From Candidatus Magasanikbacteria bacterium GW2011_GWA2_56_11 (GTDB lineage Bacteria; Patescibacteriota; Patescibacteriia; Magasanikbacterales; UBA922), in the NCBI GenBank assembly GCA_001004885.1, contig LCRX01000005.1:1-52074 (forward strand): 52,074 nt of DNA. Direction: 5' to 3'. The notes beneath the pieces are model-generated. The model did not search any database. It had not been told where the DNA came from and saw only the letters and a program-made list of their open reading frames with translations. This document shows, piece by piece, positions 1,941-19,874 of this stretch; position 1 is the stretch's first letter, and the number at the start of each line of letters is the position of its first letter. Both the position numbers and the translations under genes were made by a program.

Positions 1941-1969
1941 ACTAGAGCTAATTAGACACTAATGGCGCC

Positions 1970-4186: not shown

Positions 4187-4558
4187 CTAGTGAACGAGCG
4201 GCACAGTCTCGCGATGGTAGTCGTCGCTTAACCGGACGATGTCGTCCTCGCCAAAGTAAGTGCCAGTCTGGACCTCGATAAAAACAAGGTTCTGGTCCCC
4301 GGAATTATAAATCCGGTGCTTCATGCCTACCGGTATATCCACCGTCTCGCCGGCGCGTACGGGCCGCTCAATATCGTCGAGAGTTACCGTGCCCAAGCCC
4401 TGGACGACAAACCAGTGCTCGGCGCGCTCCCGGTGCAGCTGGTAGCTAACCCGTGATCCTGGTTTTAACACCATTTCTTTCACCTTGTAGGCATCCCGCT
4501 CGATCAGGTTGGTAAAACCGCCCCATGGCCTGGCTTCGGTAAAATGATATTCTGTCAT
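4187..4558 (-). CDS. Cupin, type II mannose-6-phosphate isomerase-like
   Basis: The 123-residue single-domain cupin resembles the C-terminal isomerase domain of bifunctional ManC/AlgA proteins. RPWGGFTNL near the N-terminus matches the RPWG motif, and the metal-binding cupin motifs follow: QLHRERAEHWFVVQG and the later IPVGMKHRIYN. The GMP-transferase half is absent, so this is a stand-alone domain. The likely role is mannose-6-phosphate/fructose-6-phosphate interconversion or sugar-nucleotide metabolism (inference). Confidence 0.8.
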   Translation of the reverse strand: MTEYHFTEARPWGGFTNLIERDAYKVKEMVLKPGSRVSYQLHRERAEHWFVVQGLGTVTLDDIERPVRAGETVDIPVGMKHRIYNSGDQNLVFIEVQTGTYFGEDDIVRLSDDYHRETVPLVH

Positions 4559-4569
4559 ATGATGCTGTT

Positions 4570-4762
4570 AGCTAGAACCCACTCCAAAATTATTTAGAAC
4601 CCCCGCTAAAACCATTCTGCTCCAATTTCGACCCGCTTCTGTCGCGGATTTTCCTCATTTAGCCACCATAGTACTGCCGCGCTTACTCAATGCGACAATT
4701 TCCGCTCGAATTATCTTCAAGCCAGACTCAAAATTATTTTTAGGCTGAATTCTGATAAAAAG
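4570..4762 (-). repeat. Hairpin repeat, copy D (reverse orientation)
   Basis: This fills most of the 323-base gap between pgi and the cupin gene. Read on the minus strand, it contains the core TTGAG...AGTACTATGGTGG...AAA (4658-4692), flanked by the stem-like TGTCGC...GCGACA. It ends at the 4570 side with a sequence like the TTTGGGAGTAGGTTCTAG end of copies A and B. The other end has the variant CTGAATTCTGAT. The remaining 4763-4881 holds a separate imperfect hairpin (AGACCA at 4812-4817 pairing with TGGTCT at 4832-4837) that may act as the pgi 3' end. Confidence 0.6.
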
Positions 4763-4881
4763 TCCAACCCAATCCAATCAGACAACCCGACTGCCAAATT
4801 CGGCCTGGCACAGACCAAAACTCGGCCGAACTGGTCTGCCGGCACGATAGACCGACGAGAAAACTAATCGCGCACCGTCTG

Positions 4882-6201
4882 CTAGGTACGTTTCTTGGCG
4901 CCTTGGCGAGCCAGGAGTATCTCTTTCGTAACCTGCTTGGCCCGCTCCACCCCTGGCTGATTGAAAGCATCTACGCCGGTGAGTTCACCCAAAAATGCTG
5001 TCGCGCCCTGAAATAGAATAAATAATTGCCCCAGGTGGTCCTCATCCAGCCGGTCAACCGTTATTGCCAGGTTCGGCCGGTCGTTTTCGGTATACGATCT
5101 CTGCGTGCCTTGACATTCCACGTCCATAAGTTCATTAAAGGACGTCCGCCGCAAAAATGCAAGGGTGCTCTCCCCGGAAGGCGGGCTGGGTATGTTGACG
5201 CGGGGACCTAAATTTTTTACGTTCAGGAACATAATTAGCTTATCGTTGGGTCCTTCGTTGTACAACTGACTCTGAGAATGCTGGTCTGTAACCCCGAGAG
5301 CGCTAACCGGGGTGAGGCCGGCATGGACCGTTTCCCCGCGCTCATCCACGGCCTTGCCGATGCTCTCGGAGAGCAGCTGGCGGTACCAATCGGCAAAGCG
5401 GATTAACTTCTGGGCATAAGGCATAAGTACATTAATGCTTTTGCCCTTTTGGGCCAATAGATGCTGGACAGCCGCCAACCGGAAAGAATCGTTGATCCGT
5501 GGATCCGGGGACAAAAAGCGGTCGCGCATAACCCTAGCGCCGCGCAATAATTTGTCTATGTTGACGCCCATAAAAGCTCCGGGCAAAAGCCCGACCGCCG
5601 TCAGGACGGAGAATCTTCCGCCGACCCGCGGCGGTACCGGAAACGTGGGAATACCGTCGCGCTCGGCGGCGCGGCGCAAAAATCCCTCTTGCGGATCGGT
5701 TACTACCACGAATTGTTGACCCACGCGACCGCCGGCTTTGGCGACTAGAGCCTGAAAATAAAAGTACTGAGCGAGCGTTTCCGGCGTGCCGCCGGATTTG
5801 GTTACCACGATAAACAAGGTCCGTTTGAGGTTAATAACGTCAAGGATTTCACGCATCATTACAGGGTCGATGTTATCGAGAATATACAAGCCGGGGCCCG
5901 GGCGCCGGGCCTTATGCCCGTATAACGGCGTCAGGCTTTGCTGAAGACACGAAGCGCCCAGTGCCGATCCGCCGATACCGAGCACCACCACATCGCGGTA
6001 GCGTTCCCGGCGTTCGCGGACAAACTGCTTTATCTCGGCTACTGCCGCCGTATCATCAATAACACGGAAAAAATCCTGAGCCCGATTTTTAAACTGTTCC
6101 AAACAGGCTGGCAGTCGGATAAAAACTCTGTCCAATTCTTTTTCGGCCAGTCCGTGATCACCGGAAACCTTAAACAAATTGGAGAAATCTATCTGCAACA
6201 T
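4882..6201 (-). CDS. pgi: Glucose-6-phosphate isomerase
   Basis: The 439-residue enzyme interconverts glucose 6-phosphate and fructose 6-phosphate. It is the shorter (about 440-450 residue) bacterial form. Motifs seen are VLGIGGSALGASCL (phosphate-binding loop), VVTKSGGTPETL (second SIS motif), GGRFSVLTAVGLLP, and NEGPNDKL containing a family-conserved Glu. The C-terminal helix has the expected late Lys (GVERAKQVTKEIL). The start ATG at 6201 is AT-rich upstream without a clear SD. Both flanks carry hairpin repeats (copies D and A). Confidence 0.93.
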   Translation of the reverse strand: MLQIDFSNLFKVSGDHGLAEKELDRVFIRLPACLEQFKNRAQDFFRVIDDTAAVAEIKQFVRERRERYRDVVVLGIGGSALGASCLQQSLTPLYGHKARRPGPGLYILDNIDPVMMREILDVINLKRTLFIVVTKSGGTPETLAQYFYFQALVAKAGGRVGQQFVVVTDPQEGFLRRAAERDGIPTFPVPPRVGGRFSVLTAVGLLPGAFMGVNIDKLLRGARVMRDRFLSPDPRINDSFRLAAVQHLLAQKGKSINVLMPYAQKLIRFADWYRQLLSESIGKAVDERGETVHAGLTPVSALGVTDQHSQSQLYNEGPNDKLIMFLNVKNLGPRVNIPSPPSGESTLAFLRRTSFNELMDVECQGTQRSYTENDRPNLAITVDRLDEDHLGQLFILFQGATAFLGELTGVDAFNQPGVERAKQVTKEILLARQGAKKRT

Positions 6202-6216
6202 AAATTTTTATATTTA

Positions 6217-6380
6217 AATCTACTCCCAAAAATAACTTCCGGCTCATTTTTGGCTATTTAGGCGCCAGCAACCTCCGGATTGAGCGGGATACTGGTGGTA
6301 TGGCGATGAAATCCGGGCATTGCTGGCGCCTAACTGATTCAAAATTGATCCTGGGAATTATTTTTGGGAGTAGGTTCTAA
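6217..6380 (+). repeat. Hairpin repeat, copy A
   Basis: This is a nearly full-length imperfect inverted repeat. The ends are CTACTCCCAAAAATAA on the left and TTATTTTTGGGAGTAG on the right. Nested inside are GGCGCCAGCAA and TTGCTGGCGCC, then CCGGATT and AATCCGG. The apex is GAGCGGGATACTGGTGGTAT followed by GGCGATGAAA. The right end supplies the TAG stop codon of the sugar dehydrogenase gene. Confidence 0.75.
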
Positions 6381-7972
6381 ATACGCTTGCCGGCGACACA
6401 TTCCTGTAATTCTTTGGCCGATGTCCAGCCGCACTGCCCGTTTGCCTGCCGCTCGCAGACAGCGTTCTTGTAGCAAGAATACTCTTCTTTATACAGACAG
6501 TCGGTAGCTGTTTCCTGTTGCGCGCACACCTGGCCGCTGCAGCCGGTAACCACGCAACCGCCCGCCGCCGGGCCAGGAGTCTCTGGTTTTTGTTCCCGGT
6601 TACTTGCGCCGACATACGCCACGCGATAAACCACGTTAGCCTTGTCATCCGAGATATAGGTCACGCCGTCTCGCCCCATAAAAATATCCACCGGCCGGCC
6701 GAGCGCGCGATAATCGCTGGCCAGCCAGCCGCTGATAAAGTCCTCCTCGCCCTCATAGACGCCGTCCGGATCCAATTTGTAACGGACAATTTTGTAGCCG
6801 GTCGGCTGGCTTCGGTTCCACGAACCGTGATAAGCCACCAGGAGATCGCCGGCATAACCAGCCGGCCAGCCTGTCTCGGGAACGAACGCCAGCCCCAAAG
6901 GTGCCGAGTGCGCCGGAATATCGATATGGCTCTGAGTGTCCCCGGGTTCCTGGCAAGGATGGCGGATATAAATATTCTTGTCGAAGTCCGTGTCAAGGAC
7001 ATTTTTGCCGTAGCAGATCGGCCAGCCATAAAACTTGCCGGCCTCGACTATGTTTATCTCATCCGGCGGAACAGCGTCCCCCAAATTATCCCTCCCCATC
7101 TCTGTAACCCATAATTTGTTGGTGCGAGGATGGAAAGCCATAAAAACCGCGTTCCTGAGGCCGGAGGCAAAAATCCGCTGTTCCCCGACTACCATATTGG
7201 CCTCTTTGGGCCCGCGCGTAAAATCCAGATCTACGGCCAAAATCGCGCCCCGGCGTTTGTCCTCTTCCCAACAGACATCGCAGGCAGAGCCGACAGAAAC
7301 AAACAAGGTGCCCGTCGTGCCCGGCACTTCTTCGAAAGGCAACTTCTCCCCCCGGAACGCAATCGTCCGGGTGGTGTGCCGGCCGCCGGCGGGCAAATCG
7401 ATGAGTGTTTCAAAGGCAGTGCCATCGATGTAGGTCTCATCACCCGCGCTGCCAACCAAATCCTGGAAATCTTCCCTCTCGATGGTCGTCATGCTTATCC
7501 GGTGCTCCTCGGCCACTAACAACCGGCAAAGCTCCTTGTCCTCGGACAGGTCATTATCCAGCCGGTGGCAGTAGACGGCAAATCCATGCGGACGGTTAAG
7601 GCCCGAAGCCACAATTACCGTCTTTTCTGACGTTCCATCGCGGTCTTCATCCACAAGCGCCTTTATTTTCCCCTCCGCAGGCACGCTAACAAGCAGCGTA
7701 CCCCTAGGGTCAGCCCCCATAGCCCGTGCTGGCCCTACGTCCCGAGCAAAAATTGAAATAACAAAACCCTGAGGCAATGTTAAGGGCGAACCAAGCGCCG
7801 TCTCTACAGGCGGGTATTCAGTTTTCGATCCGGTTCCCAGCCTTTCGGCTATGTCTCCGGCCGGAGGGGTAAGCGCCGGAACAGCCCCGCGCCACTCCCG
7901 CCAGGCGAACAACCCGACGATACCGGCCAAAAAGGCCAACCCTACGCCGGCGCTAACAAATGTTCTGCGCAT
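6377..7972 (-). CDS. Exported PQQ-type sugar (sorbosone) dehydrogenase with eight-cysteine tail
   Basis: The 531-residue protein starts with a membrane helix (about residues 5-24), followed by a linker and a six-bladed beta-propeller of the glucose/sorbosone dehydrogenase family. Propeller motifs include RPHGFAVY, GLRNAVFMAFHP, ELWVTEMGRD-like LWVTEMGRDNLGD, PPDEINIV, FYGWPICYG, HSAPLGLAF, AYHGSWNRS, GRPVDI and GVTYISDD. These enzymes oxidise sugars outside the membrane using PQQ. The last 60 residues hold eight cysteines in the order GC-GC-VC-DC-SC-VC-QC-EC, separated from the propeller by a Pro-rich spacer; this matches what is called an eight-cysteine-cluster domain. A perfect 18 bp palindrome lies 39 bases upstream of the start. 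Confidence 0.85.
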   Translation of the reverse strand: MRRTFVSAGVGLAFLAGIVGLFAWREWRGAVPALTPPAGDIAERLGTGSKTEYPPVETALGSPLTLPQGFVISIFARDVGPARAMGADPRGTLLVSVPAEGKIKALVDEDRDGTSEKTVIVASGLNRPHGFAVYCHRLDNDLSEDKELCRLLVAEEHRISMTTIEREDFQDLVGSAGDETYIDGTAFETLIDLPAGGRHTTRTIAFRGEKLPFEEVPGTTGTLFVSVGSACDVCWEEDKRRGAILAVDLDFTRGPKEANMVVGEQRIFASGLRNAVFMAFHPRTNKLWVTEMGRDNLGDAVPPDEINIVEAGKFYGWPICYGKNVLDTDFDKNIYIRHPCQEPGDTQSHIDIPAHSAPLGLAFVPETGWPAGYAGDLLVAYHGSWNRSQPTGYKIVRYKLDPDGVYEGEEDFISGWLASDYRALGRPVDIFMGRDGVTYISDDKANVVYRVAYVGASNREQKPETPGPAAGGCVVTGCSGQVCAQQETATDCLYKEEYSCYKNAVCERQANGQCGWTSAKELQECVAGKRI

Positions 7973-8010
7973 AAAGTAATGATAAAGACAAAACCGTGCC
8001 GCTTGGTTTA

Positions 8011-8028
8011 GTAATTGTATACAATTAC
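8011..8028. promoter_or_regulatory. Perfect 18 bp palindrome upstream of the sugar dehydrogenase gene
   Basis: GTAATTGTATACAATTAC is perfectly self-complementary and sits between the dehydrogenase start (7972) and a terminator. It includes TATACA, which could serve as a -10 element on the minus strand, so a dimeric regulator bound here would block transcription. No other copy was noticed. Confidence 0.5.
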
Positions 8029-8031
8029 ATC

Positions 8032-8071
8032 CTAACTGAAAAGCCTGGCCGAGGCCAGGCTTTTCAGTTAG
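8032..8071. terminator. Perfect 19 bp hairpin terminator
   Basis: The arms 8032-8050 and 8053-8071 are perfectly complementary with a GC-rich centre (GCCTGGCC/GGCCAGGC) and A/T-rich outer ends. It lies 10 bp beyond the stop codon of the GH113-like gene and, being flanked by A and T runs, could work in both directions. Confidence 0.85.
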
Positions 8072-8080
8072 ATAAAAACG

Positions 8081-9691
8081 CTAACCTGATACCAAGACCG
8101 TAACCGTTCTCTCGGCAATTGTCGCTCCGCTTGAATTTTTGGCAATGAATTTAACCGCGTAGGGCCCGGCGCCGCGCCAAGTCCAACCGCTGACGTCAAT
8201 CCAGGATTCCTTGTGAGGACCGCCGTCCAGACTGTCGTACATACCGTTCAGAGCGCCGCCGTCAACCTGCCAGTGGAGCGAATAACCGGACAGGGGGGCC
8301 CCGTCGATCAGGGCCTTAAAGGGTTGCAGTCCGGACACAGGAGCCCCGTCCGCTGGCCACCAAACGCTAATTGAGCCGGCTCCAGGCGCCGAAGTAGCGG
8401 CCGAGCGCGCCGTTATTTGGGCCGCATTGTCCGCCCAAGCGTAGTTAGCGCTCCAGTCGCTGTTAAAAACTCCGGCTTTAACCGTATAAGCGCCGGCCGC
8501 GGCCGGGGTCCACTGGATAACGTAAGACTTGGTTTCTCCGCCAGCGAACGATTGTCCGGAACGAAAATCTTGATGCACCTTATTGCCGGCGGCATCATAA
8601 ATTTCCATATCCACGACTACGCCGTTTTGAGCCGATCCGTCTTTGCGCACCGATACTGTTACGCCGGTACTTTGTCCGACTGCCGGTTCAGCCGGATTAC
8701 TCGAAGCGTTAATCGCAAAGGAACCGCTCGGGGCCGGGACGCCGGAGGCGGGAGAAGTCGAGGCGAACCATTTGGTCATCACCGCCTCGGCTGCTTTGTG
8801 CTGGGGAGTAAAAGTAGTTGATCCCGGCCAACCGGCATTGGGGTCGCTAGACCAGTCCCACAGCTGTACGCCCTGCATGTAGGGCTGGTCGTTCCAGTAG
8901 GCAAAAAGCGCTTCATAAAGGCGGGCCTGGTTGCCGTCGTCAGGGTTGCCGCCGTCCCAGAAATTGAACGGCTGCCACTGCGCCCAATCCATACTGCGAT
9001 AGCCGATTTCGGTAAATATTACCGGCCGGCCGAACCGGTTGCTGAGCGGCCGGATGTCGTTGACATCTATTTTTTGCCATTCCCGCTTGTAGCTCTCGAC
9101 CGAGGTATCGCCAGTCGGGAGGGGGAAATATGCCGAGATGCCAATTGAATCCAGACTCGACCAAAATGAAATCCGATTTTTTTCATCAGTCCAGCCCGGC
9201 GCGCCCCAGTTGGCGCTGTAAGTTAATTTTCCGGAATAAATCCCCCGGACTTGGCCAATGAGCTTGTTCCAGTTATCCGTATTTTGGAAGTGGGCATCGT
9301 GAGCAGACATGTTAATAAGCTCGGAGCCGACAGTAATTTGTTCCACTCCCAATTCCTGCCCCATCTGGGCATAATGTTTAATCATATTACCGTAAGCGGC
9401 AAACCACCCGGTCCGATCGGCGGGCGGCGTCTCCCACCCACGGTGGATGTCGGTAGAATGGGTATTGGACTGAAACCAGGGAATTGTGAGGGTAACATAA
9501 TTAGCATTGGTCTTTTTCAGATTTCTCATCGATTCCTTGAACGATTCGCTGCTGTAATCAGTATTCCAGCGCGACATTATGCTCGCGCCTCTTTGCCAGT
9601 CCTTAACTGCCGCTTCGGCCCCCGGTACGCTGCCAAAGCAACCTAAAAACAGGATGGCAATCGGCAAAAAATAAGACACAACTTTTCTCAT
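8081..9691 (-). CDS. Secreted GH113-like glycoside hydrolase with two beta-sandwich domains
   Basis: The 536-residue protein has a signal peptide (residues 1-28, cut near GAEAA). A (beta/alpha)8 barrel of GH113 type follows: GASIMSRWNT, NYVTLTIPWFQ, HYAQMGQELGVEQITVGSEL with the presumed acid/base Glu124, LTYSANW, LDSIGISAYFPL, and VIFTEIGYRS with the presumed nucleophile Glu228. GH113 members are mainly beta-mannanases. Residues from about 335 to the end form two beta-rich modules (CARDB-like and Ig-like) that may bind polysaccharide. Between residues about 81 and 86 the barrel jumps from HSTDIH to RGWE; the helix and strand normally carrying a TP-x-D...GLKVMLKPHVD-like segment seem to be missing. 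Confidence 0.75.
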   Translation of the reverse strand: MRKVVSYFLPIAILFLGCFGSVPGAEAAVKDWQRGASIMSRWNTDYSSESFKESMRNLKKTNANYVTLTIPWFQSNTHSTDIHRGWETPPADRTGWFAAYGNMIKHYAQMGQELGVEQITVGSELINMSAHDAHFQNTDNWNKLIGQVRGIYSGKLTYSANWGAPGWTDEKNRISFWSSLDSIGISAYFPLPTGDTSVESYKREWQKIDVNDIRPLSNRFGRPVIFTEIGYRSMDWAQWQPFNFWDGGNPDDGNQARLYEALFAYWNDQPYMQGVQLWDWSSDPNAGWPGSTTFTPQHKAAEAVMTKWFASTSPASGVPAPSGSFAINASSNPAEPAVGQSTGVTVSVRKDGSAQNGVVVDMEIYDAAGNKVHQDFRSGQSFAGGETKSYVIQWTPAAAGAYTVKAGVFNSDWSANYAWADNAAQITARSAATSAPGAGSISVWWPADGAPVSGLQPFKALIDGAPLSGYSLHWQVDGGALNGMYDSLDGGPHKESWIDVSGWTWRGAGPYAVKFIAKNSSGATIAERTVTVLVSG

Positions 9692-9715
9692 AGGGTCTCA
9701 TAACAGAAAATAAAG

Positions 9716-9757
9716 CTACCTACAGGTAGTATAGGGGGAGCCCGGGACAGAGGGCAA
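9716..9757 (-). promoter_or_regulatory. Promoter and operator-like palindrome of the GH113-like gene
   Basis: The minus strand reads TTGCCC (9752-9757), 18 bp, TATACT (9728-9733). Directly downstream of the -10 is CTACCT-GT-AGGTAG, a perfect inverted repeat (9716-9729) that would cover the transcription start. This is a plausible repressor site. Confidence 0.5.
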
Positions 9758-9800
9758 GCAGGACATTGAGCCATTCAATCCAGCGGGCCTCAAGTATGGT

Positions 9801-10061
9801 CTAGGGTTTACGCTGCATAATCCTGGCCAGGTAGACCGAAACTACGACCACCGCAAAGGAAATGAACAGCGCGTAAACGAATTTAGCCAAAAGACCGCCG
9901 CCCGACACGGGAAAAAAGTATTCAATAAGCGCTTTAATCGCCTCATTCCAGGCCAGGCCGGCCACTAGGCCGAGAGCTGCCAGAATGTAGCCGGTAACCT
10001 TTTCTCGGACTTCTCCGGTAACTCGTTTTCCCTCTTCTTTGATCTTGTCGAATGGCGGCAT
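9801..10061 (-). CDS. DUF5654-type small membrane protein
   Basis: The 86-residue product has a charged amphipathic N-terminus (about residues 1-25), a first helix containing ILAALGLVAGLAWNEAI, and a second helix at about 58-80 followed by a basic end. This pattern matches the DUF5654 family as I remember it, common in Patescibacteria and archaea. The function is unknown. Hairpin repeat copy B lies directly upstream. Confidence 0.7.
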   Translation of the reverse strand: MPPFDKIKEEGKRVTGEVREKVTGYILAALGLVAGLAWNEAIKALIEYFFPVSGGGLLAKFVYALFISFAVVVVSVYLARIMQRKP

Positions 10062-10074
10062 ACTTGTATGTTTA

Positions 10075-10228
10075 TCAAAAAAAAATTCCGAGACAATTTT
10101 GTGCCTGTTTCGAGCGAAAATTGTCCGGGTTGAGCAGGCTAGTGGTACTATGGCGACGAAAGCCGGACAATTTGCAGCCGAAGCAGGCCAAAATTGAGCC
10201 GGAAGTTATTTTTGGGAGTAGGTTCTAG
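10075..10228 (+). repeat. Hairpin repeat, copy B
   Basis: The right end GTTATTTTTGGGAGTAGG plus TTCTAG matches copy A; the left end is degraded to an A-run. The inner stem is ATTGTCCGG with CCGGACAAT. The apex reads GAGCAGGC, then TAGTGGTACTA, then TGGCGACGAAA. The right end provides the TAG stop of the YibE/F gene, just as copy A does for its neighbour. Confidence 0.75.
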
Positions 10229-11364
10229 TCGCCGCTATCGTGGCGAAACACATAAGCCGCGAGCGCGGTGGTGAGCGGCACGGCGCACACCAGCGCCAGA
10301 CTGCCGACTAACGTGCGGACCATTTCTTCTACGACTAACTCAGTATTTAGAGTTACCCAGAACGGAGTGCTGTAAGCCGTAAAAAGAAGCAGCAAGGGAA
10401 ACGACGCCCCGGTGTAGGCCAATACCAGTGTGTTAACGAGAGAGGCAATATGCTCGCGGCCGATGGCGAGTCCGCGCTGGTAAAGCTCGCGGCCGCCAAA
10501 CGCGCGGTTTGCTCGCTTAAGCTCATAAACCGCCGCCGCCTGGGCCGTCGTCACGTCGTCGAGTACGCCGAGCGCGCCGATAATTATTCCGCCCAAAAGC
10601 AACCCCGAAACACTGATAGCCCCGGTGGGCGCGAACTGCAGATAAAAGGCCTCCTCGGTACCCAGCCCTGACAGACGGGCCAGGCGCACAAATAGGACGG
10701 CCATGCTCAAAGCAAAACCGATGGTCGAGAGCAGGCTTAGAAATGCCACCAATGTCCGGCGGTTAGCCCCATGCGCCACGAACAACGAGGACGAGGCGAT
10801 GAGAATCGTACCGACAAAACTCACCAGCAATGGGCTTACTCCCTGGCTGATCTGGGGAATGATATACAAACTGATGACCAGAATGGTAAGCGCCAAACCA
10901 ACGAAGGCCATGAAACCGCGCTGGCCGCCAAAAACTATGACCGTGAGAGCAAACAGGCCGATCAGGCTGTAAATAACCGGCAACCGATAGATCTCCGTTA
11001 CATAGTAAAAAACGCCGTCCGGGGCCTCGCTTTTCACGACCACCACCCGATCCCCGGCCCGGAGAGCGCGCTCCCGGCTGCCGGCGCCCCGCACTTCATA
11101 GTCCACGGTCAAATCCCGGCCAGTCTCCGGGCCGCTTGTGAGGATGATCCTGAGTTCCTGTTTAGTTCCTTCCTCATCCAGTTCAAAATTGGTTTCCTGG
11201 CGTATGACTTCGCTTACCCGTCCGCGTCCGTAAGTCTCCTTCAAATCCAGCTCCGGAGCGGCCGGTCCGACCGGCGCGGCCTGCGCCGGTAACGTCCAAA
11301 ACGAAGTTAATATTACGCCGTAGGCCGCCAGGCGCAAAAAACCGCGGATGGATAACATTTTCAT
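10225..11364 (-). CDS. YibE/F family membrane protein
   Basis: The 379-residue protein has a signal-like N-terminus, an extracytoplasmic beta-rich domain (about residues 30-125, including GDRVVVVKSEA), and then seven or eight transmembrane helices. Family hallmarks are YSLIGLFALTVIVFGGQRG, the LGGIIIGALGVLDDVTTAQAA motif with its paired Asp residues, and REHIASLVNTLVLAYTGASFPLLLLF. YibE/F proteins are of unsettled function, probably transport. The stop codon is formed by the end of repeat copy B. Confidence 0.85.
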   Translation of the reverse strand: MKMLSIRGFLRLAAYGVILTSFWTLPAQAAPVGPAAPELDLKETYGRGRVSEVIRQETNFELDEEGTKQELRIILTSGPETGRDLTVDYEVRGAGSRERALRAGDRVVVVKSEAPDGVFYYVTEIYRLPVIYSLIGLFALTVIVFGGQRGFMAFVGLALTILVISLYIIPQISQGVSPLLVSFVGTILIASSSLFVAHGANRRTLVAFLSLLSTIGFALSMAVLFVRLARLSGLGTEEAFYLQFAPTGAISVSGLLLGGIIIGALGVLDDVTTAQAAAVYELKRANRAFGGRELYQRGLAIGREHIASLVNTLVLAYTGASFPLLLLFTAYSTPFWVTLNTELVVEEMVRTLVGSLALVCAVPLTTALAAYVFRHDSGD

Positions 11365-11492
11365 AGATTATTAAAGAGGGATAAGGGCCCAGTCTCCGTA
11401 TTCTTGGGTCCACAGACATCATCGAATCTATATTCTTCCAAATCTATCTTTCGACCCAGTCTTTGGCGCCCATTAGGCGAGACGCAGCCACT

Positions 11493-12476
11493 CTAGCGTA
11501 AACCGGCCAGACGCCGGACTTCAGCCATTGTTTCCGCGGCCTTATGCCGCGCCCGGTTAGCCCCCTGTTCCAGTATTTGCTCGACTCTGCCGGGGTCGGC
11601 CATGAGTTCTAGCCGCCGCTCGCGGAAACCGGCAAAAAAGCCGGAAACGGCTGCGGCCACTGCCTGTTTCAGCTCGCCGTAGCGAATACTGCCGTCCTGT
11701 TCCGCGGCGGCAAACCCGGCGTAGGCTCCGGTATCGCCAAAGTGCTCAAGCAAAAGCAATAAATTTTGCGCTCCAGGCGATCCGGATCCCCCGGCAGTTG
11801 CCGTCGGCGCTTTCTTGAGTTTATTCTCTATAATCTCAGGCTCATCCGCCAGTTCGATGACGCTCTCAGGCCCGTGGCTTTTGCTCATTTTTTTCTCGGG
11901 GTACAAAAGGCTCATAACTTTGGGCACTGCCGAAAGCAGATGTTCCGGCTCAGGAAAATATTGGCCGAACCGGCGGTTGAACCATCGGGCGATGTCGCGG
12001 GTCAACTCGACATGCTGGACCTGGTCCTGGCCTACCGGAATGACAGTGGCCCGGTAAAGGAGTATATCCGCCGCCTGAAGTATGGGGTAGGTCAAAAGAC
12101 CGGTATTTATGTTTTTCTCCTGGCGCTCGGCCTTATCCTTGAACTGCGTCATGCGGTAAAGCTCGGCTACGGGCGTGATACAATTAAATATCCACGCTAA
12201 CTCCGCGTGCTCCGGCACGTGCGACTGGACAAAAATAGTAACTTTATCCGGGTCAAGGCCGAGGGCCAGAAGTTCGGCCGCCGCGGTTACCATGAGGCGA
12301 CGCCTCTCGTCCGAGGCCAGCTCGCCGGTCAAAGAATGCAAATCCGGTATCAATATATACATTTCGTACTGCCCGGAATCCTGTAGCCGGAGCCAGTTTC
12401 TCACCGCCCCCAAATAATTGCCCACATGAAAATTACCGGTCGGTTGAATGCCTGAAAGAATAATCGGTTTGGCCAT
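11493..12476 (-). CDS. trpS: Tryptophan--tRNA ligase
   Basis: The 327-residue class I aminoacyl-tRNA synthetase charges tRNA-Trp. The HIGH-type motif appears as GNFHVGNYLGA near residue 16, and the KMSKS loop as KKMSKSHGPES near residue 200. The tryptophan pocket region includes GQDQVQHVELTRDIARWFN. I chose the ATG at 12476 (protein starting MAKPIILSG); an in-frame ATG six codons upstream is also possible. Length is typical for bacterial TrpRS. Confidence 0.95.
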   Translation of the reverse strand: MAKPIILSGIQPTGNFHVGNYLGAVRNWLRLQDSGQYEMYILIPDLHSLTGELASDERRRLMVTAAAELLALGLDPDKVTIFVQSHVPEHAELAWIFNCITPVAELYRMTQFKDKAERQEKNINTGLLTYPILQAADILLYRATVIPVGQDQVQHVELTRDIARWFNRRFGQYFPEPEHLLSAVPKVMSLLYPEKKMSKSHGPESVIELADEPEIIENKLKKAPTATAGGSGSPGAQNLLLLLEHFGDTGAYAGFAAAEQDGSIRYGELKQAVAAAVSGFFAGFRERRLELMADPGRVEQILEQGANRARHKAAETMAEVRRLAGLR

Positions 12477-12552
12477 AACCCAAAATTCATCCATGAATAA
12501 GGATGGCCTTAGCGTACCCTATTTCTCCGGGGTTGACAAGCCGTTGGCGCTC

Positions 12553-12762
12553 TCAAAGATGCGCCGTGCTTTCCGGCTGTTCCGGAATAAAAATCGCCGC
12601 GAGAACGTAGGCTATGAAAAAAGGAAAGACGCCGGTAGCCATGAGCAACAGTACGAAGATTATGCGGACTATCACTGGGTCAAGATCAAAGTGCTCGGCA
12701 ATGCCGCCGCACACGCCGGCTATAAACCGGTTCTCACGGGAGCGGTAAAATTTTTTTCTCAT
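12553..12762 (-). CDS. PspC-domain small membrane protein
   Basis: The 69-residue protein is a single PspC domain: basic N-terminus (MRKKFYRSRENR), the signature FIAGVCGGIAEHFDLDP, then a hydrophobic helix at about 30-60. PspC domains are linked to envelope-stress responses and to membrane anchoring. No other psp gene is visible nearby. Confidence 0.85.
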   Translation of the reverse strand: MRKKFYRSRENRFIAGVCGGIAEHFDLDPVIVRIIFVLLLMATGVFPFFIAYVLAAIFIPEQPESTAHL

Positions 12763-12879
12763 ATTCGCAACCGCTAACCGCTGCTCGGCGGCGCGGATGC
12801 CGGCCGGCAGCTTATGGTTGGTAGCATACCACCGCCAGCGGACCGAGGCTAGGTCTAATAAAAACGGCAGAGACGACCC

Positions 12880-14745
12880 CTAGACCTCAATCACGACCGG
12901 CAGCACCATCGGCCGTTTTTGCGTTTTAGTGAAGATGAACTGGCCGATCTTGTCCCGCACGTCGTTCTTGATCTTGTTGGTATCGGTCCACGTTAGAGGG
13001 TCGGACTCCAGGACCATCTTCTTTACGCGGTGGCGAATATCCTCAATCAACTGCTTATTGTCTTTGATAAAGACAAAACCGCGGGTGATAATATCCGGAT
13101 TCTGTACCAGCGTGCCCCGCTTCGAGTCTACGGTGGCAATGACTACTACCATGCCGTCTTCGGCCAGGACCTGCCTGTCGCGCAAAACGATATGCTGGGT
13201 GTCGCTAATGCCCAGGCCATCCACGAAAACATAGTCTGTCGGCACTTTTTTGGGCAAGACTTTCAATCCCTGCCGGGTAAGCTCGATAACCGTACCGTTG
13301 TCCGGCACGACGACATTGCCCTCCCTAAAACCGTTCTGGATGGCGAGCGTGCGGGATTCCTTGAGAAAATAGTGGTTAGCGTAAACCGGTATAAAGTAAT
13401 CCGGCTTTACCTGATCCAGCATATCCACGATATCGCGGCGCGTGCCGTGCCCGCTCACGTGCACATCCATAATGTCGCCGTGGATAACGCGGTCTGATTG
13501 ACGGTAAATATTATCCTTGAGCCGCTGCACGGTCCGTTCATTGCCGGGAATAATCGAGGAGGAGAAAATCACGGTGTCTTTCTTGCGCAGTTTTATCACC
13601 CGGTGCTCGCCGCTAGAAATGCGCGACAGTACGGCCCGCTCTTCGCCCTGGGCTCCGGTGCAGACGATGACTACTTTGTTTTCCGGATAACGATCGGCCT
13701 CCTCCGTATCAATAAGCACGCCTTTCTGAATTTTGACGTAACCCAACTTTTTAGTCATCTCGATGTTCATTTTCATGCTGTAGCCGTCGAGCGCCACTTT
13801 TTTACCCAGTTTGGTGGCGGCCTCGATTATCCACTTCACCCTCTCCACTTGCGACGAAAACGTGGCGATAATCACCCGTCCCGGCGCTTCGTCCAGTACC
13901 CGATGAAGATTTTCGTACATTTCCTCATACGTGCCGTGGCGCTTTTCATTCGTGGCTCCCAGGCTTTCGAGCATAAGCGCCATGGGGCGGGGCAAATTCG
14001 CCAGCTGTTCATAGCGAACATGGGCCAAACCGTTGCGATCGCGCTCCATAGTCCAGTCGCCCGGGTGGACAACGGTACCGGCGGCAGTCTGAAGAATCGT
14101 TCCCATGGAATCCATTATCGAATGTTCCACCTGAAAAAACCGCAGGCCGAACGAACCGAGCTGGATGCGATCCTGCACGCTTTTGACCGTGACGGTCTTC
14201 AAGCGCTTGGCGCTTCCTTTTTGGTAATCTTCCTGTTTATGCTTAATCAAGGCCAGAGTGAGCGGCATCGCGATGACTGGCGGATAGCCAAGTTTTTCCA
14301 AAAGAATCGGCGCCGCCCCGATATGGTCCAAGTGCCCGTGGCTGAAAACGACGCCGCGGATGCGTTTCTCCTTGCCCTGAAGATATTTGATGTTGGGAAT
14401 AATGTAATCGATGCCCGGCATGTCCTCTTCGGGAAACTGCAGGCCCATGTCGAGAATGACAATGTCGGAACCATGCTCGTACACTGTCATATTGCGGCCC
14501 ACCTCCTCGCAGCCGCCCAGGGGTATAATGCGCAAAGCCTGGGGGTTCGCCTCGGACGGCGTATCTGTCGCGGCCGGCGCGCCGGATGGCAGGCGGGTTT
14601 GCCGACCTACTTTGGGGACGCCAAACCGGCGCGCGCCCGGAGACGCAAACTGCCTCGCTGCCGGCGTTTTTTTGTCGGCGGCGGTTGGTGCGCCGGGCGA
14701 AACGCGGCGCTTGGATCCGTTATAAACATTCATCATAAATACCAT
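12880..14745 (-). CDS. rnj: Ribonuclease J
   Basis: This metallo-beta-lactamase/beta-CASP ribonuclease (about 621 residues) takes part in mRNA decay and rRNA maturation. Catalytic motifs are SHGHLDHIGAAP (metal-binding HxHxDH), the EHSIMDS region, HPGDWTMERD-like metal residues, VSGHGTRRD, and PVYANHYF. The first 85 or so residues are a Pro/Ala/Lys/Arg-rich, probably disordered extension before LRIIPLGGCEEVGRN. Candidate ATG starts are 14745, 14736 and 14733; none has a clear SD, and an in-frame TTG exists at 14778. It is transcribed toward PspC and away from tRNA-Leu. Confidence 0.92.
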   Translation of the reverse strand: MVFMMNVYNGSKRRVSPGAPTAADKKTPAARQFASPGARRFGVPKVGRQTRLPSGAPAATDTPSEANPQALRIIPLGGCEEVGRNMTVYEHGSDIVILDMGLQFPEEDMPGIDYIIPNIKYLQGKEKRIRGVVFSHGHLDHIGAAPILLEKLGYPPVIAMPLTLALIKHKQEDYQKGSAKRLKTVTVKSVQDRIQLGSFGLRFFQVEHSIMDSMGTILQTAAGTVVHPGDWTMERDRNGLAHVRYEQLANLPRPMALMLESLGATNEKRHGTYEEMYENLHRVLDEAPGRVIIATFSSQVERVKWIIEAATKLGKKVALDGYSMKMNIEMTKKLGYVKIQKGVLIDTEEADRYPENKVVIVCTGAQGEERAVLSRISSGEHRVIKLRKKDTVIFSSSIIPGNERTVQRLKDNIYRQSDRVIHGDIMDVHVSGHGTRRDIVDMLDQVKPDYFIPVYANHYFLKESRTLAIQNGFREGNVVVPDNGTVIELTRQGLKVLPKKVPTDYVFVDGLGISDTQHIVLRDRQVLAEDGMVVVIATVDSKRGTLVQNPDIITRGFVFIKDNKQLIEDIRHRVKKMVLESDPLTWTDTNKIKNDVRDKIGQFIFTKTQKRPMVLPVVIEV

Positions 14746-14890
14746 AAATATTAGCTTTGTTAAGCGTGTTGATAACAATGAAGAAAACCAACACTGGGGT
14801 TAACGAAGTTGCCAGCTCGCAACGCGGGGAAACAGTCTCCGTTGCCAAAAAAACCGCTCACCGCCGGTTGCCGGCCGTTGACTTCAATTG

Positions 14891-14972
14891 TGCCGATGGT
14901 GGGACTCGAACCCACAGGCCTTGCGGCACACGCCTCTGAAACGTGCGTGTTTACCAATTTCACCACATCGGC
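14891..14972 (-). tRNA. tRNA-Leu(CAG)
   Basis: The 82 nt gene has acceptor stem GCCGATG/CATCGGC with discriminator A, D-arm containing AATTGGTAAA, anticodon stem CACGT/GCGTG with loop TTCAGAG (anticodon CAG), a long variable arm typical of Leu, and T-loop GGGTTCGAGTCCC. The 3' CCA is not encoded (CAA follows). Confidence 0.95.
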
Positions 14973-14987
14973 ATAGTGGACAGCGGA

Positions 14988-16979
14988 CTATTTCCACCGC
15001 CCGTCGGTTGTATTATACCACTCAATGACATTTGCGAACCTATCGGCCGGATGAGCCACGCGGCTGACATTGAAACCCCTGACCGATTCGTCGAGAACAT
15101 AAGTGTAGGTCGGCGTGTAAAGAAAAACCGCCGGCACGTCGTGCAAAATCTGCGTCTGCAAATCCGCCGAGAACTTGGCCGCCTCGGCAGCATCGTCGGT
15201 TTGGCGCAGTTTAAGGAGCAGCTCGTCTACTTTGGGATTGTTATAGCGGGAAAGATTGAGGCCCGGATGATCAGCCTGGCTGGAATGCCAGAAAGCATAC
15301 TGGTCCGGATCGCCGCCGACGATCACGCGGTACAAAAGCGCATCATAGGCGCGATCTTTGAGCACTGCCCTCGGCATGTCTTTGGGACTAACATACTTGA
15401 TTTTTGTTTTGATGCCTATATCCTGCCAATACCCGGCGATCAATTCAGCCGCCTGTTTGTATTCCGGCGTGTCCGCTGTTACCAGATCAACCGTAAGCAA
15501 GGTGCCGGACTGGCTGCGCCGGTAAAACAGCTGAGCGGCCGAAAGCTCGGCATCGAGTTCCTTGTCTATGTCGGCGGCTGCCTGTAGAGCGGCGGTGCTG
15601 GTGGCCACGCCGGTCTCGGAGGCCTCCGGCGTACTGGTACCCATGGACGACCCTGTCTCGGACTGCCGTTGTTTCCAGAGTTCTTTTTGACGCTCCTCGC
15701 GATAGACGGCGGCTTCAACTCGCCGCCACTTTTTGTCCAAAAGAGCGTTGGCCTCGTCAACTGAGTAAGCCGGGCCGGACAATGTACTGTCGTAACCAGG
15801 AAAACCGGAAAGGATCGGGCCGTTTATCAGCTCCCCTTCGTTGGCCAGAGTGGCTTTGAGTATCTCCCCGCGATCCAAAGCGATGGCCAAACTGCGGCGC
15901 ACGTCATTATCGGACAGCACCTCCCGCCGGCCCTGGTTAAGAAACAGCGCGGTATACTGGGGCAGCTGCATGGTGTAGAGCTTAACCGGCTGCAAATTTT
16001 TCACCCGTTCCCGGAACTCAAACGGCAGAAAATTAAGACCGTTTATTTTCTGCTCCCTGAGTGCCGCGATCGCCCCTTGGTCTCCGTCGTAATCCGAGTA
16101 ATATTGAAAAATAAACTCCTTCAAAAACGGCGGCTGACGGTAATAGCCGGCAAACCGGGCCAACTCGTAGCGGGAAATGAACCCGGTGTCGTCTTTGATG
16201 AGCCGCTTAAAGGCAAAGGGGCCGGTACCTATCGGCTTTAGATTAACCTCGGCCAAACGAAACTGAGGCCGCGGTATTCCCGACCAGGTATGTTCCGGAA
16301 TTATACCGACCGTGAGGACGGACAAAAAACCTGGAAACGGCTCGGCTAAAGTAAATTTAACTGTCCGGTCGTCCAACGCCTCGGCCTTTACTCCTTGAAA
16401 ACTGACAGCCAAAGGACTGCCGACCTCGCTATCCTGCAGGGCTTCGATTGTAAAGACCACATCCTGGGCCGTAAACGGCTCCCCGTCGTGCCAAACGACC
16501 GCTTCTTTTAGCTTAAAGGTATACTGCTTTTTGTCCGGTCCGATTTCGTAGCCTACCGCCAGGTCCGGGACGAGCCGTTGCTCGCGGTCGTAGCGCAACA
16601 GACCGGAATAGACCAACCGGGACAAATCGGCGTCAGCTTCATTTAGCGCGGCGAAAAGCGGATTAATCAGGCGCGGAGCGCCGACCATCCCTTCAACATA
16701 AGTGCCGCCGACTGCCGGAACCTGAAACCGACGGGCAGAGGCGAGGCCAAGAGACAACCAGAGAAAACTCGCCAAAGCGACTAAAAGCGAAACCTGGAAT
16801 AGCCGTTTCTCTCCGGGAGTTAAAATTCTCGGCAAAAACCGGAACTGCCGCCAGCGCGGAAATGCCCGGCCGCGCAGCAAACGCATAAGAGCCACGTCAT
16901 GGTGCGAACTCACGATGTTTCGACGGCGGCGCCCATGGCCGAACCAACGTCGGCTTTTGTTCCACAAAGAGGAAAACAC
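14988..16979 (-). CDS. Membrane-anchored peptide-type solute-binding protein (SBP family 5)
   Basis: The 663-residue protein belongs to the oligopeptide/dipeptide-binding family (DppA/OppA-like). Motifs are GGTYVEGMVGAPRLINPLF, SRLVYSGLLRYD, KQYTFKLKEAVVWHDGEPFTA-type VWHDGEPFTAQDVVF, and NDVRRSLAIALDRGEI. It starts with about 58 basic, cytoplasm-like residues and one transmembrane helix (about 60-80) instead of a lipobox. A Ser/Thr/Gln-rich coiled insertion lies near residues 420-490. No ABC permease or ATPase gene is adjacent, so its partner must lie elsewhere or it acts alone. Confidence 0.85.
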   Translation of the reverse strand: MFSSLWNKSRRWFGHGRRRRNIVSSHHDVALMRLLRGRAFPRWRQFRFLPRILTPGEKRLFQVSLLVALASFLWLSLGLASARRFQVPAVGGTYVEGMVGAPRLINPLFAALNEADADLSRLVYSGLLRYDREQRLVPDLAVGYEIGPDKKQYTFKLKEAVVWHDGEPFTAQDVVFTIEALQDSEVGSPLAVSFQGVKAEALDDRTVKFTLAEPFPGFLSVLTVGIIPEHTWSGIPRPQFRLAEVNLKPIGTGPFAFKRLIKDDTGFISRYELARFAGYYRQPPFLKEFIFQYYSDYDGDQGAIAALREQKINGLNFLPFEFRERVKNLQPVKLYTMQLPQYTALFLNQGRREVLSDNDVRRSLAIALDRGEILKATLANEGELINGPILSGFPGYDSTLSGPAYSVDEANALLDKKWRRVEAAVYREERQKELWKQRQSETGSSMGTSTPEASETGVATSTAALQAAADIDKELDAELSAAQLFYRRSQSGTLLTVDLVTADTPEYKQAAELIAGYWQDIGIKTKIKYVSPKDMPRAVLKDRAYDALLYRVIVGGDPDQYAFWHSSQADHPGLNLSRYNNPKVDELLLKLRQTDDAAEAAKFSADLQTQILHDVPAVFLYTPTYTYVLDESVRGFNVSRVAHPADRFANVIEWYNTTDGRWK

Positions 16980-17110
16980 AATGATTCTTTAGGCGTGAGC
17001 GTGTCCCCTCTCGGCTCTTCCGGAGGCAGCGCCCCAATTAAGAAAGCCGACACAAGACCAGCCAACACCGACACGTTTGAGTCCGGAAGGCACTGTACCC
17101 GCGGCTTGAT

Positions 17111-17329
17111 CTAGATCATTACTATGGCGAGAGAAACCGCAAAGAAGAGAACGGCCACGACAATGGTGAACTGGAATAAAATCCGGTCGATGCCGCGGCG
17201 CGTAGTATAAACCGCTGCCGAGCCCCCGAAAGCGGCGCCCAATCCAGACCCCTTCTGCTGAAGCAGAATAACCGCAATTAGAAGAACGGCACAAATGAGT
17301 TGTATAACGGACAGAATGGTGCCGAACAT
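17111..17329 (-). CDS. secG: Preprotein translocase subunit SecG
   Basis: The 72-residue product has two transmembrane helices (about 4-22 and 49-70) around the SecG signature LLQQKGSGLGAAFGGSAAVY. It forms the SecYEG channel with SecY and SecE and assists protein export. I chose the ATG at 17329; the longer open frame begins at a TTG and adds nine residues. A strong promoter lies upstream (17394-17422). Confidence 0.9.
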   Translation of the reverse strand: MFGTILSVIQLICAVLLIAVILLQQKGSGLGAAFGGSAAVYTTRRGIDRILFQFTIVVAVLFFAVSLAIVMI

Positions 17330-17386
17330 AATACTGGGTAATAATAGATAAGGCAACCGCCGTTGACTACTTCAGACATCATTAGG

Positions 17387-17422
17387 CTGAAGTAGTGTAG
17401 CATACCGACCGTAGTCTGTCAA
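17387..17422 (-). promoter_or_regulatory. secG promoter with adjacent inverted repeat
   Basis: On the minus strand TTGACA (17417-17422), 17 bp, TACACT (17394-17399) is close to consensus. The 9 bp inverted repeat CTACTTCAG/CTGAAGTAG (17367-17375 and 17387-17395) starts at the end of the -10 and could be an operator or a 5' leader hairpin. Confidence 0.65.
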
Positions 17423-17530
17423 CGGTCTTTTGGAGCGCGGTCTGCTAAGAGCTTTTGCCCCGGCCACGAGCCTGCCTGGGCCTATATCGGCAGGCGCTTG
17501 GTAACCGGATTTATTAGCTATACCTATATG

Positions 17531-17559
17531 TTGACGTTAGGGCCAATATGATATACTAT
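17531..17559 (+). promoter_or_regulatory. Promoter of the DsbA-like/TrbC-like gene pair
   Basis: TTGACG (17531-17536), 17 bp spacer, TACTAT (17554-17559). The start would be near 17566, about 38 nt before the ATG at 17604. Between this promoter and secG lie about 110 bases (17423-17530) in which I see no gene. Confidence 0.6.
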
Positions 17560-17603
17560 AGCTACTTTGGTAATTTGCCAAACAGACTTCCCTTGCACGC
17601 AAT

Positions 17604-18350
17604 ATGTCCGACAACGACCAGGCACGCTTGCCACGCCGGCATATCGCCAAGATATTTATAGCACTCGCCGGCACGGTTTTTGGCTTGTTAGTCATCACCT
17701 TTACGAGCTATTTTGTCTCCTATCTGTGGCAATCCAAATACGGCTCCGCCGAAGACATCGCCCGGCTCAACCGGGAACTGGGGGGCGAACGTTTTACCCT
17801 GGCGGCCGATTATCCCGGACCGCGCCCCCCGGCCGACCTGAAGCCGTACGTCCGGCCGGGCAATCCGATCACCGGCAATCCGGACGGTCAGGTAACCATT
17901 CTAGCGTTCGTGGATTTTGAATGCCCATTCTCCCAAGAGGGATATCCGCTGTTCAAAGCCATACTAGATACGTATGGCCCGACGGCGCGGGTGGTGCTGA
18001 AACATTTGCCATTATCTACCATACATCCCGATGCTGCCCCGGCCGCTGAGGCCGCTGCCTGCGCCGGCGAACAGGATAAATTTTGGGATTATGCCGACCG
18101 TCTCTTTACCTCAAAAAAATTAGCGCGTGAAGATTTGACCGCGGCGGCCGCGGAGCTTGAATTAGACCTCAACCGGTTTAACCGCTGCCTGGTTTCGGGA
18201 AAATACCGCGGAGATATCGAACAGGATATGCGCGACGCCGCGGAGCTTGGCGTGCGCGGCACCCCTACTTATTTTATTAACCAGCGAGTGATCGAAGGCG
18301 TCGTCGACCGCTCTACCTGGGATAAGGCCATCCTTTCCGGCCTGCAATAA
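17604..18350 (+). CDS. Membrane-anchored DsbA-family thioredoxin-fold protein with CPFS site
   Basis: The 248-residue protein has an N-terminal anchor helix (about residues 16-40) and a DsbA-like domain from about residue 90. The active-site motif is CPFS at 107-110, within AFVDFECPFS, so the second cysteine of the usual CxxC is replaced by Ser. The cis-Pro loop GTPTYF is present near 220. Typical family members (TlpA/DsbG/BdbD-like) form or isomerise disulfides outside the membrane; a CxxS version would favour isomerase or mixed-disulfide chemistry (inference). It ends 2 bp before the Cys-rich TrbC-like gene. Confidence 0.85.
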   Translation: MSDNDQARLPRRHIAKIFIALAGTVFGLLVITFTSYFVSYLWQSKYGSAEDIARLNRELGGERFTLAADYPGPRPPADLKPYVRPGNPITGNPDGQVTILAFVDFECPFSQEGYPLFKAILDTYGPTARVVLKHLPLSTIHPDAAPAAEAAACAGEQDKFWDYADRLFTSKKLAREDLTAAAAELELDLNRFNRCLVSGKYRGDIEQDMRDAAELGVRGTPTYFINQRVIEGVVDRSTWDKAILSGLQ

Positions 18351-18352
18351 AT

Positions 18353-19711
18353 ATGCGCCGACTTCTTTTTATTTTAGGTTTTCTATCGATCATAGCGGCG
18401 CCGGGAGCTGCCCGGGCGCAAATAGACCAGCGCTGCTGGATAAAAACAGACTGTTTAGAGTACCGCCAGCAACAGTACGAACTGTCTCCCGAGCAGGCGG
18501 CGGCCGGGTTCGTCAAGAACAGCGAGACATCCAAGGCCTGCCAGAGCGCTCCGGACGCCAAGGGCAAAGTCGACGAACTTGGGTTCTGCCTGCCCGCCGG
18601 CAGCGCCGAGACCAAAGTCTCGTTTGGCGGCCAGACCAAATTTACCCACATTGGCGAGTTTATTCAGTTTATCTACCAATACGGCATCTGGGTCGCCGGC
18701 GCGTTCGCGGTTGTCTTTATTATTGTCTCCGGTTTTCAGTGGGCCCTATCTGGCGGCAGCTCCGAGATGATCGGCAGCGCCCAAAAACGCATCGGCGGAG
18801 CCATTACCGGACTTATCCTGCTGGCGCTATCGTACACTATATTGCACACGATTAACCCTTACCTGGTGAATTTACGGCTGCCGCAAATTTGGCTGCTTAA
18901 CCCGGTTTATTTGCCGGTTGAATTCTGCAACCAACGCCCCAGCGACCTGTTTAGCTACATCGGCAACCAAACAGTTAATACTGAGCTGAAAAAAGGCACC
19001 CAGCCGACCTACGACATAAAATTCTCGACCAACGAAAGCCTGCTCAAATCCAAATTTGCCTGCGGCGACCAACTCTACTACAAAACCGGCGGCGGCGCGG
19101 TTTGCCGGGGACATTTCTGCCCGCCGAGCGGCAAGCTCCCCCAGATGTGCTTCCGCGACCTTTTCAGCAAAAAATACGAATGCAAGCCCGGACAGATCGC
19201 CGGCAAAATCACCAACAGCCAATGGGACATACCGGGCTGGAAAAATTGGGAAAGCGGATCGGACGTAGTAGACGATTTTGAGGTCTATATCGTCTGCGCC
19301 AGCGGCAAAACCATCGAGATTAAGGATCACCAAGAAAAAATTCAAGTTTCACCCGGCAACGAAACCGGACAATACTTAGTTGGCCTCGACAACCAAAAAA
19401 CCTTTGACGCCGGCGCCGGCTGCGGCGGCAAAGGACCGGACGGAGGACCCTCGGTTATCGGGCTGGTCTTGTTCCCGGATTTTGACGAAAACCTCGACCC
19501 GTTTGACGAGGCGCACTATATCGGGATCAATCCGACAAATCCCAACCAAGCGCTTGACCTCGGCGACAAGAACACCCCGTTTTTTAACCTAATATTGAAA
19601 AACGAAAATTTCAAAGGCCACCCGGCGCAAAAATTCCTGATTCCGTTCTCTGCCATGGACAAGGGGTACACTGTAAATATCGACGTCGGGGATATTAAAG
19701 ACATTGACTAA
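18353..19711 (+). CDS. Exported TrbC/VirB2-like protein with large Cys-rich domain
   Basis: The 452-residue protein has a signal peptide (about 1-22, AARAQ), a short segment with four cysteines, and then two closely spaced transmembrane helices (about 108-130 and 148-167) around a GGSSEMIGSAQKRIGGA loop. This two-helix pattern recalls TrbC/VirB2 pilin-like proteins that recur in Patescibacteria. After about residue 185 comes a soluble domain of about 265 residues with roughly nine further cysteines and no family I recognise. The gene is tightly coupled to the DsbA-like gene upstream, which may supply its disulfide bonds. Confidence 0.6.
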   Translation: MRRLLFILGFLSIIAAPGAARAQIDQRCWIKTDCLEYRQQQYELSPEQAAAGFVKNSETSKACQSAPDAKGKVDELGFCLPAGSAETKVSFGGQTKFTHIGEFIQFIYQYGIWVAGAFAVVFIIVSGFQWALSGGSSEMIGSAQKRIGGAITGLILLALSYTILHTINPYLVNLRLPQIWLLNPVYLPVEFCNQRPSDLFSYIGNQTVNTELKKGTQPTYDIKFSTNESLLKSKFACGDQLYYKTGGGAVCRGHFCPPSGKLPQMCFRDLFSKKYECKPGQIAGKITNSQWDIPGWKNWESGSDVVDDFEVYIVCASGKTIEIKDHQEKIQVSPGNETGQYLVGLDNQKTFDAGAGCGGKGPDGGPSVIGLVLFPDFDENLDPFDEAHYIGINPTNPNQALDLGDKNTPFFNLILKNENFKGHPAQKFLIPFSAMDKGYTVNIDVGDIKDID

Positions 19712-19874
19712 AACCTACTCCCAAAAATAACTTTGAGGCCTTTCCGAGAAAATTATGGGCCAAAAAAATGAAGATTAAGAAGGAATACTGACAGTATTCT
19801 CACGATATCTGAACTTTTTGTAGCCAAAAGAGACCGGGAATGGTGAGAGATTATTTTGGGGATGAATTCTAGAA
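19707..19874 (+). repeat. Hairpin repeat, copy C (diverged)
   Basis: The left end is AACCTACTCCCAAAAATAAC, identical to copies A and B read inward, beginning at the TAA stop of the TrbC-like gene. The right end is ATTATTTTGGGGATGAATTC followed by TAG. The centre has a perfect hairpin GAATACTG-A-CAGTATTC with GGAATACT and ACGATATC resembling the core of copy A. It fills the gap before uvrA. Confidence 0.6.

Follow-up and report, generated by a model that had tools for sequence, protein, structure and literature searches.

The hairpin repeats of the window, which here means the whole 52,074-nucleotide stretch of DNA analysed (contig LCRX01000005.1 of Candidatus Magasanikbacteria bacterium GW2011_GWA2_56_11), probably represent a palindromic, MITE-like mobile element that is non-autonomous, is selected or recognised as a folded single strand and is moved by an enzyme acting in trans. 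The repeats belonged to one family with dispersed copies, their stems covaried, their internal loops were constant, the same strand was always the one marked for folding, and the element was inserted as a unit.

Four Copies in the Window

Matches are given for two covariance models, namely R1, the first, built on the core from copies in the host genome, and R2, a later model. An earlier sequence-only reading of the window had described four hairpin copies, and all four were present close to where that reading had placed them (Table 1). Copy A was upstream of ORF 4187-4558, 14 nt from its start, and copy D 20 nt upstream of ORF 19892-22717 (+). Copy B folded into a single rod of -82.7 kcal/mol, and its subfamily was also found at G000:C1:41332-41498 in the same genome. 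The R2 match of copy C scored 140 bits. The same reading had copies A, B and probably C supplying or abutting the stop codon of a neighbouring gene. B and C did supply one, a TAG, and A did not; copy D supplied one too, in the form of TAA.

Two other repeats of the window were noted. A separate 30-nt inverted repeat at 23891-23979, 97% complementary with a 29-nt spacer, is not of this hairpin family. At 27876-27995 there were 30-bp coding-like tandem repeats of the AAGCGCAAGGTTGCTAAGAAAGCC type, probably the tail of a lysine/alanine-rich repeat protein.

Table 1. Hairpin copies in the window, their apical cores and the stop codons that they supply.
Feature	Position	Strand	Description
Copy A	4573..4765 (about)	core on -	diverged; terminal stretch of ~28 nt duplicated; R1 match 4630-4717 (-)
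Copy B	6214..6379	+	full-length, divergent subfamily; R2 match 6228-6364
Apical core of copy B	6280..6312	+	TTGAGCGGGATACTGGTGGTATGGCGATGAAA
Terminal CTA of copy B	6377..6379	-	TAG stop of ORF 6377-7972 (-)
Copy C	10076..10227	+	main subfamily; right end intact, left terminal repeat eroded; R2 match 10077-10213
Apical core of copy C	10130..10161	+	TTGAGCAGGCTAGTGGTACTATGGCGACGAAA
Terminal CTA of copy C	10225..10227	-	TAG stop of ORF 10225-11364 (-)
Copy D	19709..19871	+	most diverged in the window, both ends recognisable; R2 match 19722-19859
Terminal TAA of copy D	19709..19711	+	stop of ORF 18353-19711 (+)

The Family in the Host Genome

The host genome (1.25 Mb) contained about 26 core-bearing copies, together with 4 internally deleted minis of 51-62 bp and 4 solo ends. 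R1 found 26 distinct core loci, and a BLASTN search with copy B as the query returned 45 pieces. The terminal sequence that the copies had been said to share, TTATTTTTGGGAGTAGGTTCTA, was matched 35 times genome-wide with up to 3 mismatches, compared to 0 matches for the reversed control, so chance was excluded. About 19 copies were full or nearly full (152-193 bp), 5 had one end missing and 1 was degenerate. The closest pair of copies was 98% identical and the median pair 74%, indicating that the family holds both recent and old copies.

The intact element was ~165 bp long, free of genes and bounded by an outer inverted repeat, TA-GAACCTACTCCCAAAAATAA. The terminal inverted repeats at both ends of intact copies read TAGAACCTACTCCCAAAAATAA, and the long inverted ends had the form TA-GAACC...GGTTC-TA within YTAR/CTAG. 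Written in the orientation of the core, an intact copy was TA-GAACCTACTCCCAAAAATAATTCC ... GAGCGAAAATTGTCCGG-GTTGAGGAGG-CATAGTGGTACTATG-GCGACGAGAG-CCGGACAATTTGCAGCC ... GGAAGTTATTTTTGGGAGTAGGTTC-TA, and the best copies folded end to end into a rod of about -98 to -102 kcal/mol. By a hand tally, the left TA was mostly preceded by C or T and the right TA mostly followed by G or A, which corresponds to YTAR, with CTAG the commonest.

Three host copies, C1:93820-93967 (L064), C6:116439-116588 (L072) and C6:133164-133307 (L120), had kept the left terminal repeat and lost the right one. In all three the break came after GCCGGAAG, at almost the same place inside the element, and the sequence beyond it was unrelated. 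Such a shared loss is odd for a terminal-repeat transposon and is possibly a clue to the mechanism. The 51-bp minis were considered as an independent mobile form and rejected, since recurrent slippage deletion explains them on our reading of the sequences: the junction, at the repeat CCAAAA, is the same in C9:35125 and C13:60201, and C13:18259 resembles them.

Some variants were also observed. In another genome, G141, a hairpin copy at about 1000-1240 of L172 carried an extra palindrome, CCTGCCTGCCGGCAGGCAGG, inserted in the right arm. In L146, L156, L160 and L170 the left ends were AGACCTCTTGC directly against CAT, possibly the initiation codon of a gene that points away from the element; read outward, the end of these copies is AAGAGGTC, which could act as a ribosome-binding site.

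Pairing Is Retained While the Stem Sequence Changes

The inner stems had been described as different in sequence with their pairing kept, and compensated changes proved abundant, both among the host copies and phylum-wide. In a MAFFT alignment of 19 host copies, 24 of 68 pairs showed two-sided changes. These amounted to 58 two-sided cells compared to 15.6 in shuffled alignments, and none of 500 shuffles reached as many. When the partner was slid by one base, pairing dropped from 91% to 48-49%. The MAFFT alignment of 35 copies from 11 genomes gave 339 two-sided cells against 130 shuffled, and 69 copies from across the phylum gave 868 against 296, with 85% of positions paired compared to near 45% in the sliding controls; this last alignment was fitted to the covariance model and thus leans towards it. 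The view that structure is conserved more than sequence was therefore borne out.

The most constant letters lay outside the pairs. Over the 69 copies the unpaired columns held 1.17 bits of information and the paired columns 0.79 bits. The AGCGA loop was present in 56 of the 69, with GCAGCC on the opposite side in 44 and GTAGCC in 9, and the three tandem G·A steps were intact in 44, 47 and 47 copies. The retention of pairing and of odd, purine-rich loops, together with the freedom of the stem letters, hints at a role for the folded strand as such.

A G·A step on one strand is a C·T step on the other, so that one strand is marked as the folding strand. Among 48 copies from other genomes, the strand with the core folded more stably than its complement in all 48 when RNA parameters were used (a mean difference of 14 kcal/mol) and in 47 when DNA parameters were used. 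The inner stems also contained more G·U than A·C oppositions (48:16 by hand count and 104:34 in the model-fitted alignment), and the excess was weaker, 47:26, on the alignment of copies from other genomes that was made without structure fitting.

Distribution Beyond the Host

The search of the host and its relatives with covariance models, which the sequence-only reading had proposed, yielded abundant further copies. R1 recovered this core elsewhere in the order, in further genera and families, with stems and terminal sequences that differed yet still paired. In the class sample of 381 genomes R2 matched 69, and in the phylum sample of 380 it matched 50, of which 48 belonged to other classes; E-values outside the host went down to 1e-28. 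The sampled genomes were 0.5-1.4 Mb throughout, sizes that suggest a phylum of reduced genomes. Since no more than 8 candidates were scored per genome, the copy numbers are minima. R2 gave no match at E<=10 in 108 kb from unrelated organisms outside the phylum.

The terminal repeats varied even among copies of one genome (G055 a-d). The host terminal sequence had only 3 scattered matches in 143 relatives, each with 3 mismatches, and exact terminal patterns gave matches at chance level only in the GTDB species genomes and contigs and in IMG/VR. A plain sequence search thus misses the family, and covariance models are needed to find it. We found no description of the element in the open-access literature.

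Empty Sites and Insertion as a Unit

Orthologous empty sites were found for two copies in other species, which carry relatives of the element. In G054 a copy stood at the 3' end of a gene resembling a sigma factor, and the congener G059, with flanks 90% identical, lacked it. The G055 copy, located between two genes, was absent in G060, G050, G057 and G062. These results indicated that the element inserts as one unit. Together with the dispersed copies of up to 98% identity and the YTAR-flanked inverted ends, they agree with the earlier suggestion of a non-autonomous, CTAG-preferring mobile element.

That suggestion had come with a proposal to compare loci with and without the element for a target duplication. 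The comparison delivered the empty sites, but their junctions in the relatives were too drifted for a duplication to be read. In the host genome, TA stood on both sides of the copies in a YTAR context, and a TA target duplication would fit these flanks; the TA at both ends could also belong to the element itself.

Placement and Orientation Relative to Genes

Nearly all copies were intergenic, many of them no more than 10-20 nt from a start codon or immediately at a stop codon. None of 31 copies checked lay in the middle of a called gene, compared to 67 of 121 CTAG sites (55%) that were coding in the sampled DNA. One further copy, C6:133201 (L120), lay where an ORF of 234 aa, 1649-2353 (-), has its 3' end; the ORF read through the copy, which supplied the C-terminus. 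Eight of the 31 copies ended exactly in the stop codon of a neighbour. Since 30% of non-coding CTAG sites were located at stop codons, this was no excess, and the targeting of stop codons was rejected as a special trait; the donation of stop codons follows from the CTAG target and the avoidance of genes.

Where the flanking genes were co-directional, the core was in sense and antisense orientation in a ratio of 7:10 in the host (hand count) and 11:20 in other genomes. This lack of a sense bias is evidence against a leader or terminator acting in cis. Cis-acting regulatory hairpins, such as terminators or mRNA stabilisers selected at gene ends, would account for the position of nearly all copies between genes and close to start or stop codons. 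However, divergent and convergent positions occurred as well, no T run stood outside the stem, and stop-codon placement was no higher than the CTAG target predicts. Moreover, the element was absent at the orthologous junctions of close relatives at both sites tested, and identities of up to 98% between unrelated places need copying. We consider regulatory hairpins highly improbable.

A mobile non-coding RNA gene was also weighed. Its product would be a putative rod-like transcript bound via the tandem G·A steps, which might serve as a processing site, as an sRNA or as an RNA for the mobility of the element. In its favour, the same strand is always the better folder and prefers G·U over A·C, and the transcripts of bacterial MITEs form long stem-loops, with cleavage by RNase III proposed for NEMIS of Neisseria (PMC2229807). 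The folding bias, however, fits single-stranded DNA equally well, the ratios given above show no bias to the sense strand of flanking genes, and there was no match in Rfam: the window had none beyond rRNA and tRNA, and the loci of the host and the class gave nothing near threshold. An RNA gene is thus an unlikely explanation. Of the structured RNA family named in the sequence-only reading, the conservation of structure over sequence and the folding of always the same strand were upheld, whereas the copies showed no bias to the sense strand of neighbouring genes. Because the copies had no sense bias and nothing else pointed to a transcript, single-stranded DNA is slightly favoured over RNA as the working form, as far as can be inferred.

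Search for a Mobilising Enzyme

The Pfam domains DDE_3 (IS630 type), DDE_Tnp_1 (IS4/IS5 type) and Y1_Tnp (IS200/RAYT) had no match in the host genome, and no gene bracketed by a pair of element ends was seen in it. Among the sampled relatives, Y1 was present in 16 of 23 high-copy and 20 of 43 zero-copy genomes, and DDE_3 in 1 of 23 and 3 of 43. A Y1/RAYT partner was rejected as it was without association with high copy number in relatives, an IS630-type partner was absent in the host and likewise showed no association, and an IS4/IS5-type partner was dismissed for want of a DDE_Tnp_1 match in the host genome. No transposase stood among the 25 commonest Pfam families of 95 neighbouring genes, and a phage-integrase domain occurred in 2 of the 95. 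In a separate observation, G022 contained 27 Y1 transposase fragments, many at contig ends, which corresponds to a high-copy IS200-like element breaking the assembly.

The element is short, gene-free, dispersed in multiple copies and bounded by terminal inverted repeats, and it shows insertion polymorphism in relatives, all of which characterise MITEs. An autonomous partner with the same ends was not found in the host, either as ends around a gene or as DDE_3, DDE_Tnp_1 or Y1, and we therefore file the element as MITE-like and not as a proven MITE. Many accepted MITEs are likewise without a known partner.

An ordinary MITE of a DDE transposon, of the IS630/Tc1-mariner or the IS5/IS427 type, would require only the terminal repeats to matter, with the palindrome and the compensations produced by, for example, template-switch repair that perfects quasi-palindromes. 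The long terminal inverted repeats, the small size and the lack of genes fit such an element, as do the TA/YTAR flanks: IS630 targets TA with a preference for CTAG (Tenzen and Ohtsubo 1991, cited in PMC2170065), and MITEPsy1 duplicates CTAG/YTAA (PMC3189936). However, mismatched loops at fixed places were kept in 44-56 of 69 copies while the stem letters turned over. A mending process would erase these loops, so they count against a palindrome made by repair. Furthermore, the mismatches were always G·A on one strand and not a random mix, the terminal repeats differed within one genome (G055 a-d), and the DDE domains were lacking in the host, with DDE_3 also unassociated in relatives. We regard an ordinary DDE MITE as quite unlikely.

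Comparison With Known Systems

The TA-ended MITEs, namely Correia/NEMIS of Neisseria and RUP of Streptococcus pneumoniae, are alike in being 100-200 bp long, gene-free and intergenic, with TA terminal inverted repeats and a stem-loop of the whole element (PMC2229807). RUP is tied by its ends to IS630-Spn1, whereas no such partner was found for the present element. Moreover, in contrast to NEMIS and RUP, its terminal repeats differ from copy to copy and from genome to genome, and its interior structure is conserved phylum-wide. The insertion at YTAR and the preference for CTAG are shared with the IS630/Tc1-mariner and IS5 groups (PMC2170065, PMC3189936), but the host genome was without the DDE_3 and DDE_Tnp_1 domains of these groups and DDE_3 showed no association in relatives.

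The REP, BIME and REPIN sequences moved by RAYT/Y1 are also dispersed extragenic palindromes with mismatched stems, and they too are structure-dependent. REPs are 20-40 bp long (PMC3733652), compared to ~165 bp with long inverted ends here, and again no Y1 transposase was found in the host and no association in relatives. TIGR arrays (TIGR-Tas) are structured as well, and the paper on them mentions the Candidate Phyla Radiation (PMC12045711). TIGR units form tandem arrays beside tas genes with 9-nt spacers (PMC12045711), whereas the copies in the host genome are single, dispersed and self-complementary; this difference in layout counts against a TIGR identity.

A Proposed Mechanism and Its Meaning

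For the MITE-like element moved in trans, we propose that a recombinase or transposase supplied in trans would move the element by recognising its folded single strand. This strand would most simply be single-stranded DNA exposed during replication and less simply a transcript. Recognition might proceed via the internal loops (the three tandem G·A steps and AGCGA/GCAGC) together with the GANCC/GGNTC of the outer ends. Insertions inside genes would be lost, which would leave the element in very short intergenic spacers, and where a CTAG overlapping a stop codon was the target, the terminal TAG would restore the stop.

Palindromes of this small, dispersed kind have usually been described from a single genus and handled as sequence repeats. 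The present results describe one structural family, invisible to sequence search, in about one-sixth to one-eighth of the sampled genomes of a phylum with reduced genomes. It is possible, and we put it forward tentatively, that this is a new phylum-wide class of mobile element, which propagates via a folded single strand and in which the tandem G·A rod and the AGCGA/GCAGC loops are the recognition code of a recombinase, while the stems and even the terminal repeats drift. The element offers a concrete way to study how mobile DNA persists where a genome has hardly any room to spare, and its conserved loops show what an enzyme or binding protein has to read.
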